A DNA stretch of 41,221 nt from a virus: positions 1-41,221 of the IMG/VR virus record IMGVR_UViG_3300025647_000084. The stretch is one strand, 5' to 3'. Made by a program: the position numbers and the translations under genes. This document shows, piece after piece, positions 32,456 to 36,744 of this stretch. Position 1 is the stretch's first letter. Each line of letters starts with the position of its first letter. Below the pieces are notes generated by a model. That model was given only the letters and a program-made list of their open reading frames with translations, was not told the DNA's origin and did not search any database.

Positions 32456-32463
32456 CAAATATA
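32456..32463 (-). promoter_or_regulatory. Second -7-like box at the winged-helix gene start
   Basis: The minus strand reads TATATTTG ending two bases before the outer ATG at 32454. If used, transcription would start past that ATG and favour the inner ATG at 32427. There is no -33 TTTG at the proper distance, so this box is weaker evidence than the upstream promoter. Confidence 0.3.
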
Positions 32464-32469
32464 TAATTT

Positions 32470-32486
32470 CTATCGAAACTTGATAG
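32470..32486. promoter_or_regulatory. Operator-like palindrome A
   Basis: CTATCGAAACTTGATAG has 5-bp arms CTATC/GATAG. It covers the predicted start point of the leftward promoter, where a bound protein would block transcription. Its centre is 42 bases (about four DNA turns) from palindrome B. Confidence 0.7.
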
Positions 32487-32488
32487 TA

Positions 32489-32519
32489 CAAATATAAAAA
32501 AAGTATAGTTACTATCAAA
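32489..32519 (-). promoter_or_regulatory. Leftward promoter of winged-helix gene
   Basis: On the minus strand TTTG (32519-32516), a 19-base spacer and TATATTTG (32496-32489) match the Bacteroidota consensus closely. The TTTG lies inside palindrome B, and palindrome A lies over the start point. It is the likely origin of the transcript that enters the accessory and packaging genes. Confidence 0.75.
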
Positions 32520-32528
32520 TATTGATAG
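32512..32528. promoter_or_regulatory. Operator-like palindrome B
   Basis: CTATCAAATATTGATAG has perfect 7-bp arms CTATCAA/TTGATAG around ATA. It overlaps the -33 element of the leftward promoter and lies about 30 bases upstream of the rightward -7 box, so one bound protein could affect both directions. Confidence 0.75.
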
Positions 32529-32557
32529 CAATATTATAAAAAATTAATAGTAAAGTG

Positions 32558-33264: not shown

Positions 33265-33307
33265 GCAATATACTTGACATTTAAATAAAAAATTATTATG
33301 GTGTTAA

Positions 33308-33394
33308 CTATCATAAATATGGTAGTGTTACTATCATAAACATGATAGTCAGACTATCATAAATGTGATAGTAATAGCCTACCAAATATGATAG
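33308..33394. repeat. Array of four phased palindromes (candidate iteron/partition site)
   Basis: Four inverted repeats lie at 33308-33325, 33331-33348, 33354-33371 and 33379-33394. The best is CTATCATAAACATGATAG, with 7-bp arms. Centres are 23, 23 and 24 bases apart, about two DNA turns, so bound proteins would lie on the same face. The array sits between a rightward terminator on its left and a leftward terminator on its right and is not upstream of any gene I see. The same half-sites occur at the winged-helix promoter, so that protein is the likely binder. An origin or partition site fits better than a simple operator. Confidence 0.8.
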
Positions 33395-33447
33395 TAAGAA
33401 AACGCTTAAGTCGTTGGTTTTCAGAAAATTAGATAGATTTTTAGTGT

Positions 33448-34056: not shown

Positions 34057-34380
34057 CGAGTTTCTTCTAACAGATATACTTTGATGAATATAAATCTCAA
34101 TAAAAGAGTCGTTAATCAACTGACGTGATAGTTGAATAAACAGTTATAAATCTTTATAAATCAGATAGTTATGAAGAATTTAGTGATTGTAAATGGATGT
34201 GTTACACCTCAATCTTGGCTTATAAACGATAATTCGTAAAGCCAGTATTCTCTCCTTATAGAGAATTATTATAGCGAAAAGGTAAAAGGACTCTCATGTA
34301 CCTCTAATCTACTTCTCTCTATAATCTAACACATTCTACCTTAGAGTCGATGAATAATAGTAATCGACTCTTACTTTTTA
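34057..34380 (+). ncRNA. Candidate structured RNA 1
   Basis: No ORF is convincing here. Sequential hairpins are seen: TCAAC/GTTGA (34116-34135), TGGCTT/AAGCCA with inner ACGA/TCGT (34216-34244), ATTCTCT/AGAGAAT (34247-34266) and AGAGTCGAT/ATCGACTCT (34343-34371). The last is a perfect 9-bp stem followed by TACTTTTT, which reads as a rightward terminator. Together they suggest a roughly 320-nt RNA or a long structured leader. Orientation is taken from the T run. I do not recognise a known family. Confidence 0.55.
34343..34379 (+). terminator. Terminator-like hairpin ending RNA 1
   Basis: AGAGTCGAT and ATCGACTCT form a perfect 9-bp stem with an 11-base loop. It is followed after three bases by TTTTT. 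Confidence 0.55.
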
Positions 34381-34912
34381 ATACTTTCATCCAAGCAGGA
34401 TATAAATTGAACAACCGATGTCATTAATTTGGCTAGTAAACGGCAGTCTTTGTCAATGAAATAAATTGGACAAAGGTGATTATATTCAAGGATTGCAACC
34501 TTGTGAAAGTACTAATAGAATAGAATAGGATATATGGAGGGCTAGTCACCCACCGAAGAGAGTAAAAAGGGCGCACCTCGACTGTGTAGAGACCTCAATA
34601 GTGCATTTGACCGTGCTGAGAGGCGCAGAAAATCTCTAAATTAGTTACCACTGCGTGCTTTACACCGTTTGTGTGAAGATTGGCCAGGTAACACTCTCGC
34701 TCTGTTCTTTCTATTAGTAAGATATGGTATCGTCACTCTTCCCTTAACCGAGTGTCTATCCAGTAAGTTGCTGGCTCTCCCCACCTTTGAGTAGATGATG
34801 TGGGGCAATTGATCTACTATGATAATCGCCTTCCCGTGGCGTAGATCGTGAGTAACCGTAAGGTGAAACCAGGAATTATCAAATGTCTCTATTTTTGCAC
34901 TCAAACCGATCC
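34381..34912 (+). ncRNA. Candidate structured RNA 2 with pseudoknot
   Basis: This is a gene-free stretch of about 530 bases, richer in G and C than its neighbours. TACTTTCA (34382-34389) pairs with TGAAAGTA (34504-34511) and closes a domain holding CTTTGTC/GACAAAG and CAAGG/CCTTG hairpins. A second domain has a GCGC...GCGC arm (34571-34626). GTTACC/GGTAAC (34644/34687) encloses an 8-bp hairpin, CTTTACAC/GTGTGAAG. CCCCAC/GTGGGG (34779/34800) and GTAGAT/ATCTAC (34791/34812) interleave as an H-type pseudoknot. GATCG/CGATC closes just before the next ATG. So many perfect helices in one interval point to a functional RNA, perhaps also a leader of the 38-aa gene. Confidence 0.65.
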
Positions 34913-35494: not shown

Positions 35495-35596
35495 TTAGGC
35501 AATTAAAATACTATAATACTTGCTCGGTATATTTGAGGCGCAAGGATATACTGTAAGCTAATTTAGTAGCTGACAACTTGGAAAGACAAGTATTTT
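35495..35596 (+). ncRNA. Candidate structured RNA 4 with pseudoknot
   Basis: CTTGC (35519) pairs with GCAAG (35540), and GTATAT (35527) pairs with ATATAC (35546); the two helices interleave as an H-type pseudoknot. AGCTA/TAGCT (35556/35567) follows, then ACTTG/CAAGT (35576/35587) with ATTTTT after it, which could end a transcript. The piece directly precedes the tRNA-like element and may form one RNA with it. Confidence 0.55.
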
Positions 35597-35660
35597 TGGC
35601 TTTGAATTGGTAAGAGGTAGGCAATAAACCTACTAAAGAGTTCGATTCTCTTCTTAGCCA
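35597..35660 (+). pseudogene. Degenerate tRNA-like element
   Basis: A T arm is clear: AAGAG, loop TTCGATT, CTCTT. TGGCT pairs with AGCCA as a short acceptor. GTAGG/CCTAC with a 7-base loop takes the anticodon-arm place, and GAATTGG resembles a D loop. However, the element is only 64 nt, the two inner acceptor pairs are T-T, no proper D stem forms, and the position-33 base is A rather than T. It is either a decayed tRNA, a tRNA-like domain of RNA 4, or a tRNA mimic. A functional tRNA seems unlikely. Confidence 0.5.
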
Positions 35661-35684: not shown

Positions 35685-35879
35685 ATGAAAACCTTAATTT
35701 ATTTCTCATCAATCACATTGATGTATCATTTAGAATGTTTATTCATTTATACTATAAGTCCTAAAGTAGAATATCTACAAATTGCTTCAAGTGATGTGAT
35801 GTTATTTATTGGAATGGTAATAGCATTAATTTCAGGAAGCCTTTTAGCTATGGAAATCGTAGAAAAATATGATTTATAG
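35685..35879 (+). CDS. Small two-span membrane protein
   Basis: The protein has 64 aa with two hydrophobic segments: LIYFSSITLMYHLECLFIYT (about residues 3-22) and MLFIGMVIALISGSLLAMEI (about 40-59). A short polar loop joins them and a charged end follows. The leader CTTAAAACTTAAAATTTATA precedes the ATG. It lies between the tRNA-like element and the largest structured RNA. Function is unknown. Confidence 0.6.
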   Translation: MKTLIYFSSITLMYHLECLFIYTISPKVEYLQIASSDVMLFIGMVIALISGSLLAMEIVEKYDL

Positions 35880-35884
35880 CTTTA

Positions 35885-36538
35885 ATTTAAAATACAGGTC
35901 AAGCCTATGACCTTGTGATTAACTGAGAATCAGTTTATAAATTCACCTATCGCAACCGTAGGTGTCTTACGTTAATGAAGCAGGATATTAAGCATGGTTA
36001 GAAAACTCACCTGTCTTGGAGAAAGTAAGACTAATAATCACTAAAGAAAGATAAGGGAAAGTGTCAAGTTTAAGCAACTTTAGAGGTTGACTACGCTACA
36101 TATAACCTTATCCAGTGTACCCTTGAAATGCCATTTGAGAGGGATAAACAATGGAATTTATTCTAGCGTGACAAAACACTGAGGAGTTGGCAGCAAGAGA
36201 TAGAGAACCAGTAACTTGACCTTAATTGGATATAGTTAGAATACGTCATACTATCTCGTGACCATTTGTAAAGTGATTTACCCAGTGAGTGTAAATTAAT
36301 GAGTTCTTAGGTACTAACAGCTTTACAGATGGTGCTAATAGTAAAACTACCTGTTGAAGGTAGGCAATGTGATATAATAGGAGGAGCAAGTTACGAAAGT
36401 CAGCGTTCCCGACCTTATCACTAACACAAACCAAGTAACGTGTTATGTCTATTGGATGGTGCATTAGGGCATTGTGGATGTAGATGAAGCAGTTATAAGA
36501 CCTGAGCACTCCACTTGGGGGCAGGTAGTTTTATTTTT
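35885..36538 (+). ncRNA. Candidate giant structured RNA 5, about 650 nt, with terminator
   Basis: All frames are dense in stops and no credible ORF exists. Perfect helices follow one another: AACTGA/TCAGTT (35921), CACCTA/TAGGTG (35944), GATAAGG/CCTTATC (36050/36106) enclosing GTCAA/TTGAC and AAGTT/AACTT, then CAGTGT/ACACTG (36113/36176). Next come GAGATAG/CTATCTC (36197/36251), GTAAA/TTTAC (36268), CTACCT/AGGTAG (36347), GTGATA/TATCAC (36369/36416) and, directly adjacent, TAACAC/GTGTTA (36422/36440). It ends in a terminator. Size and ornate folding recall phage-linked large RNAs such as GOLLD and ROOL, but I cannot match it to either. Confidence 0.7.
36500..36538 (+). terminator. Terminator of structured RNA 5
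   Basis: ACCTG/CAGGT (36500-36504 with 36522-36526) encloses a CTCC/GGGG inner stem with an ACTT loop. TAG and TTTTATTTTT follow. It gives the RNA a rightward orientation and a defined 3' end. Confidence 0.65.
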
Positions 36539-36552
36539 AAATCTAAATTATT

Positions 36553-36744
36553 ATGAAAAGAAAATTCAAAAGAAAATACAGTTATAATTTTAAATTAAGA
36601 ATCCTATTAAGTATTGTATTTGCAGTATTTGCAATACTATGTATTGATTACAAAGTATGGCCTTATGCTTTTATTACAGGCTTTGGATCCTTAATTTTTT
36701 TATCAATGGCTTTTAGTATGAGTAATAACGACAAATATGACTAA
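36553..36744 (+). CDS. Small two-span membrane protein
   Basis: This 63-aa protein has a strongly basic start (MKRKFKRKYSYNFKLRI). Two membrane segments follow: LLSIVFAVFAILCIDYKVWP and YAFITGFGSLIFLSMAFSMS. A short polar end closes it. The basic N-terminus would stay in the cytoplasm. It begins just past the terminator of RNA 5 and is followed after two bases by the next gene. The function is unknown. Confidence 0.6.
   Translation: MKRKFKRKYSYNFKLRILLSIVFAVFAILCIDYKVWPYAFITGFGSLIFLSMAFSMSNNDKYD

Follow-up and report, generated by a model that had tools for sequence, protein, structure and literature searches.

The window, as we call the whole stretch of 41,221 nt analyzed here, is by its gene content the genome of a crAss-like phage: crAss-like PHROG families are hit by its major head protein (11589), its portal (6547) and its large terminase (6681), and its terminase places Cellulophaga phage phi14:2 (order Crassvirales) as the nearest cultured relative. 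The structural genes are read leftward and end at about 32.4 kb, where a set of small rightward genes starts. Around this divergent junction, short inverted repeats of the type ACTATCATAAA..TGATAGT, partly kept in relatives, are repeated at 33300-33400 and 32460-32540 and could possibly constitute an operator array. The stretch studied in this work, 35885-36538, sits in the rightward part, flanked by small rightward ORFs at 35685-35879 and 36553-36744. An earlier note, made from the sequence alone, had described it as gene-free and as a large structured RNA of a phage; on the + strand, no stretch without a stop codon exceeds 37 codons, and no conserved reading frame was found in the homologues described below.

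Other elements were observed upstream of this stretch. A conserved element at 34374-34520, ACUYUCAUCCAAGCAGG [variable] CAAGGRUUGCAACCUUGUGARAGUAC, has the shape of a tRNA acceptor stem joined to a T arm and occurs in at least 119 stretches in IMG/VR; one inner sequence can have different flanks, and the same flanks different inner sequences, so that it looks exchangeable, and no Rfam match was obtained in the loci tested. Besides, in the gene-free upstream part, an RNA-like module at 34724-34775 ends in TCCAGTAAGTTGCTGGC; its 52 nt are 90% identical to L113, and the stretch is also present in L062, L064, L073, L086, L087, L144 and L154. Finally, within 35495-35660, 100 nt are 88% identical to L095:1704-1803; after them, 35598-35660 resembles a tRNA (16.5 bits, a sub-threshold score) and is not called by ARAGORN.

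Blastn searches with all of 35885-36538 as query yielded no matches, either in 50,697 phage records or in the 42 loci gathered first. The first partial matches, L078 and L079, appeared among loci fetched for an unrelated nearby element and exposed perfectly conserved blocks; homologues thus became detectable only once these blocks were known. Pattern scans of IMG/VR with the blocks found L160, L162, L164-L168 and L183-L189, together with L203/L209/L217, L205, L211, L218 and L219. L187 and L189 carry the identical RNA sequence, as do L203, L209 and L217, and L078 and L168 are near-identical. We count about 18 distinct homologues, 16 with all or most of the core and 2 partial ones with its 3' half. 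L185 possesses two tandem cores (L185:11496-12102), and the P1/P2 module is duplicated in L184. Two candidates were rejected, namely the bacterial L190, whose match to an 18-mer was a coincidence outside any core, and L118, a weak model match; the pattern TCGTGACCATTTGTAA gave mostly unrelated matches. At the search sensitivity used, the RNA was found neither in the long-contig close TerL relatives L017, L030 and L034 nor in the isolates phi14:2 and Fpv3, and is therefore dispensable. No match was obtained in 295 Bacteroidia genomes under strict filters that lose weak ones.

The position of the RNA is syntenic. Among the 20 records searched, the crAss-like head protein was detected in 8 and the terminase in 9; in all ten records with both terminase and RNA, the window included, the RNA is found upstream of the TerL gene at a distance of 4-13 kb, on the opposite strand and in divergent arrangement. 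The 191-kb contig L211 carries the RNA and lacks the crAss-like head protein and terminase markers. The genes downstream of the RNA vary among members, several of which have a helicase-like and a polymerase/exonuclease-like gene there, as read from their sequences, and no partner protein common to all RNA neighborhoods was found.

Comparison of the homologues defines a conserved core of about 170 nt, composed of the P1 hairpin, the P2 arm, the P3/P4 arm, P5 with P6 inside it, a probable pseudoknot, and P7 and P8 closed by P9 (Table 1). The conserved blocks follow each other in the order AGGUCAAACCUACGACCU, GUGAUU, AAUCAC, UAAARRAA, GAUAAGG-GAAA, AUAA-CCUUAUC, CAGUGUA-CCCUUGAA, UGCCAUUUGAGAGGGA, UACACUGAGGAGUUGGCAGC, GAGAUA, UAUCUC, GACCAUUUAUAG and CUAUAGAUGGUGCUAAU.

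Table 1 Features of the structured RNA in the window (positions in the 41,221-nt stretch).
Feature	Position	Strand	Details
P1 hairpin AGGUC/GACCU	35896..35913	+	conserved loop AARCCUAY; 84/85 cells paired (manual alignment)
P2 arm	35915..36041	+	7-bp base 35915-35921 / 36035-36041; 113-nt variable insert inside
P3 with inner arm P4	36050..36112	+	P3 36050-36056 / 36106-36112; P4 (uncertain) ~36061-36064 / 36098-36101
CCTTATC	36106-36112	+	partner GATAAGG 36050-36056
CAGTGT	36113-36118	+	directly abuts CCTTATC; partner ACACTG 36176-36181
P5	36113..36181	+	36113-36118 / 36176-36181; abuts P3 directly; encloses P6 and variable insert V4
P6 CCCUU/GAGGG	36120..36143	+	comparative pairing; recovered by RNAalifold
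Proposed pseudoknot GCCA/UGGC	36130-36133 with 36188-36191	+	72/72 cells paired
Junction motif AGGAGUUGGC, then P9 AGC/GCU closing P7 and P8	36182..36336	+	motif invariant in members
P9	36192-36194 / 36334-36336	+	nearly invariant; broken in L165, L183
P7 arm GAGAUAG/CUAUCUC	36197..36257	+	49-nt insert; pairs hardly vary
P8 arm	36261..36333	+	13-bp stem ACCAUUUGUAAAG/CUUUACAGAUGGU
3' extension	36341..36521	+	folded inside terminator stem; contains TATCAC/TAACAC helices
Terminator	36343..36538	+	11-bp stem AAAACTACCTG/CAGGTAGTTTT, 36343-36353 with 36522-36532; U-rich tract 36533-36538
TATCAC/TAACAC	36416-36427	+	abutting; partners GTGATA 36369-36374, GTGTTA 36440-36445

P1, the first conserved part of the RNA, shows two-sided change at all five pairs in the manual alignment, which leans to the structure (for example CGCUA/UAGCG in L219). 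The base of P2 is swapped for AUAGUAU/AUACUAU in L203 and for GUUAAC in L205, and the pairs of P3 vary among GC, AU, CG and UA. P4 remains uncertain, its register being weak (69-78% of cells paired). An extra hairpin, V3, is inserted at the tip of P6 in L166, L184, L185b and L188, and the whole P7 arm is missing in L185a, L187, L188, L203, L205, L211 and L219. In P8, two-sided change was detected at 10 of the 13 pairs in the manual and at 5 in the automatic alignment, and the arm is reduced to ACCAUU-GAAA-GAUGGU in L160, L183, L187 and L188. The GCCA/UGGC pairing, invariant save for one C-G to U-G change, likely forms a pseudoknot; this element and P9 are almost invariant, and the pairing of both is a proposed one.

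The helices named in the earlier note do exist in the single sequence, whose fold alone shows most of the comparative ones (P1, P2, P3, P5, P6, P7 and P8). The claim that the pairing density is far above that of filler sequence held only weakly for one sequence: the folding z of the stretch was -2.79 with 20 shuffles and -2.39 with 40, and 5 of 25 other segments of the same genome (mean -1.1, sd 1.4) reached -2.4 or lower. This z is not decisive; the proof of a structured RNA is comparative. For this purpose, the cores were spliced by removal of the variable inserts and then aligned with MAFFT. In a set of 13, 95.7% of cells were paired and two-sided change occurred at 9 pairs (20 cells), with 0 of 500 shuffles reaching the observed cells or covariation score. 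With 18 cores, a set that includes the divergent L203, L205 and L219, some of whose arms were misaligned by MAFFT, 93.4% of pair cells were standard and two-sided change occurred at 18 pairs (37 cells); again none of 500 shuffles was as good, and the structure slid along the alignment gave at most 8 pairs. When the structure was withheld, RNAalifold predicted P3, P5 and P6 together with the P8 base. In an alignment made by hand with the conserved blocks as anchors, which leans towards the structure, two-sided change was seen at 33 of 61 pairs. Under a tree-aware null, of low power with 18 cores, 11 of the 60 best covarying column pairs fell in the structure against 0.3 expected, and few single pairs were individually significant.

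Altogether, the compensatory changes in P3, P5, P6 and P8 plus the AGGAGUUGGC junction establish a new family, and bear out the suggestion of the earlier note that a new class of large phage RNA, outside GOLLD and ROOL, might lie here. We are highly confident that the stretch encodes a structured RNA that is genuine and functional. The alternative of chance pairing within filler, with which the just mildly unusual single-sequence folding energy would agree, is refuted by the homologues, about 18 in number, with their conserved blocks and compensatory changes, and we give it practically no credence. The comparison also identifies the functional strand. Within the structure, G-U cells number 63 versus 9 A-C cells (30 G-U without two near-invariant U-G pairs), and shortened arms end in the GNRA-type loops GUAA, GCAA or GAAA, as in the P2 arm of L160, L185a and L211, capped by GUAA/GCAA; the functional strand is therefore the RNA read rightward.

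Between the core blocks lie unrelated inserts of 20-130 nt, at P2, P4, the P6 tip, the P5 loop, P7 and P8, which are exchanged between phages, each without regard to the core or to the other inserts. Thus, the P2 insert is exactly common to L162 and L187 but the P4 insert is not; conversely, L186 and L188 share exactly the P4 insert but not that of P2, and the P4 insert of L162 is common to L211 (91%). The P7 insert of the window is 94% identical to L079:5818-5866, located outside any core, and 81% identical to the P7 insert of L218. We considered the inserts as mere extensions of the base stems, which holds only for P4, where end-to-end pairing continues beyond the base. In L165, P1/P2 is replaced by a tRNA-like sequence (24 bits, under the Rfam cut-off), and P4 contains another tRNA-like insert. 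Visual inspection shows the motifs of the element at 34374-34520 in the insert that L164 carries at P4.

The 3' ends are diverse. In L078/L168, a compact hairpin with U6 directly follows the core and matches the terminator of the window with an A-U/U-A exchange; the window has the same stem with about 170 nt folded between its arms. Of the ending described in the earlier note, the T tract is present, but in place of a compact GC-rich hairpin there is the stem 36343-36353 / 36522-36532 with its distant arms, which the terminator scan did not call. The 3' extension (36341..36521) was not found in homologues, L078/L168 lacking it. In L187 and relatives, a further structured segment of about 200 nt lies past the core, before a terminator; this segment, with its own terminator, is conserved in L162, L167, L185, L186 and L187, and a permuted-tmRNA match (468-651, 62 bits) comes after it in L167. 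L211 has a terminator near the core. L160, L164 and L188 show no obvious terminator, and their core is followed immediately by a gene.

These data describe a large folded RNA of crAss-like phages, previously undescribed. As to its function, the likeliest reading, to which we give an even chance, is that of a phage RNA acting in trans as a scaffold, which resembles GOLLD and ROOL in kind without being related to them. A stand-alone noncoding RNA would be read rightward from the early side of the crAss-like genome, usually ending at a terminator soon after the core; the pseudoknotted core of P1-P9 would serve as a chassis whose arm tips bear interchangeable structured inserts. Transcribed early and acting in trans, it might self-assemble as a scaffold or hold RNA or protein partners, and the variable arms would set the partner or evolve under an arms race with the host. 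The main rival, which we regard as rather unlikely, is a cis-acting early-operon element, either a put-like or EAR-like device for processive antitermination or a leader controlling the next gene. The location of the RNA where the rightward arm starts, with replication genes downstream of it, and the terminators that follow in several members would suit it, and the cores of L160, L164 and L188 that run into a gene fit a leader and count against a stand-alone RNA. However, the differing downstream genes argue against a cis element, as do the terminators right after the core in some members and the tandem copies of L185, and hypervariable arms would be unusual for a riboswitch or antiterminator.

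It may also be speculated, tentatively, that the RNA is a modular platform, whose conserved pseudoknotted chassis would present exchangeable structured cassettes, some tRNA-like, with arms as decoys or adaptors towards host factors; if true, every phage has its own combination of cassettes. A pure decoy or sponge, with arms imitating host RNAs and sequestering nucleases, translation factors or defense proteins, would account for the tRNA-like elements of L165 and for swapped, diverse arms on a fixed core, but most arms resemble no recognizable host RNA and we find this quite doubtful. The compact pseudoknotted core and invariant AGGAGUUGGC junction recall an RNA of unknown class that cleaves itself or splices, as a ribozyme or an intron does; such an identity is improbable, as the RNA matched none of the Rfam models of group I and group II introns and known ribozymes and lies between genes, with no exon context. 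A structured element at the DNA level, that is, a recombination site or hairpin mobile element, is compatible with the exchange of inserts between genomes but very hard to reconcile with the G-U excess on one strand, GNRA-type loops, a single orientation and terminators.

A short fixed core with freely exchanged arms provides a natural comparison set, in which conservation of the core indicates what must fold and variation of the arms what is under change. To our knowledge, very few large structured phage RNAs have been described, and GOLLD and ROOL have no known function. In the open literature searched, we found no report of this RNA nor of any such structured RNA in the order Crassvirales, to which it belongs.

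Concerning known families, apart from hits at chance level no Rfam 15 family matched the window, whether at the gathering score or with E values up to 10, and none matched the homologue cores; the GOLLD and ROOL covariance models matched neither the window nor the seven homologue loci compared with them. With tRNA and tmRNA, the likeness consists of tRNA-like inserts and of a tmRNA near L165, L167 and L217, whereas the core matches neither model; a few tRNA or tmRNA genes lie near members, and the window has only the sub-threshold tRNA-like match. GOLLD and ROOL are phage RNAs of similar size, found near tRNAs, which assemble without protein into a homo-oligomeric RNA nanocage (PMC12286853). 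GOLLD, large, ornate and phage-borne, comprises a conserved part and a variable part that can contain tRNAs (PMC12286853), a division also seen here; however, its conservation is one 3' half, whereas here a core of about 170 nt is spread between inserts. ROOL, a phage and prophage RNA of about 600 nt near tRNA islands, contains pseudoknots (PMC12286853), which recalls the size of the present RNA and its proposed pseudoknot, but the minimal members here have just about 150-200 nt. GOLLD and ROOL are its closest counterparts in kind, with size and setting constituting a likeness and not membership.
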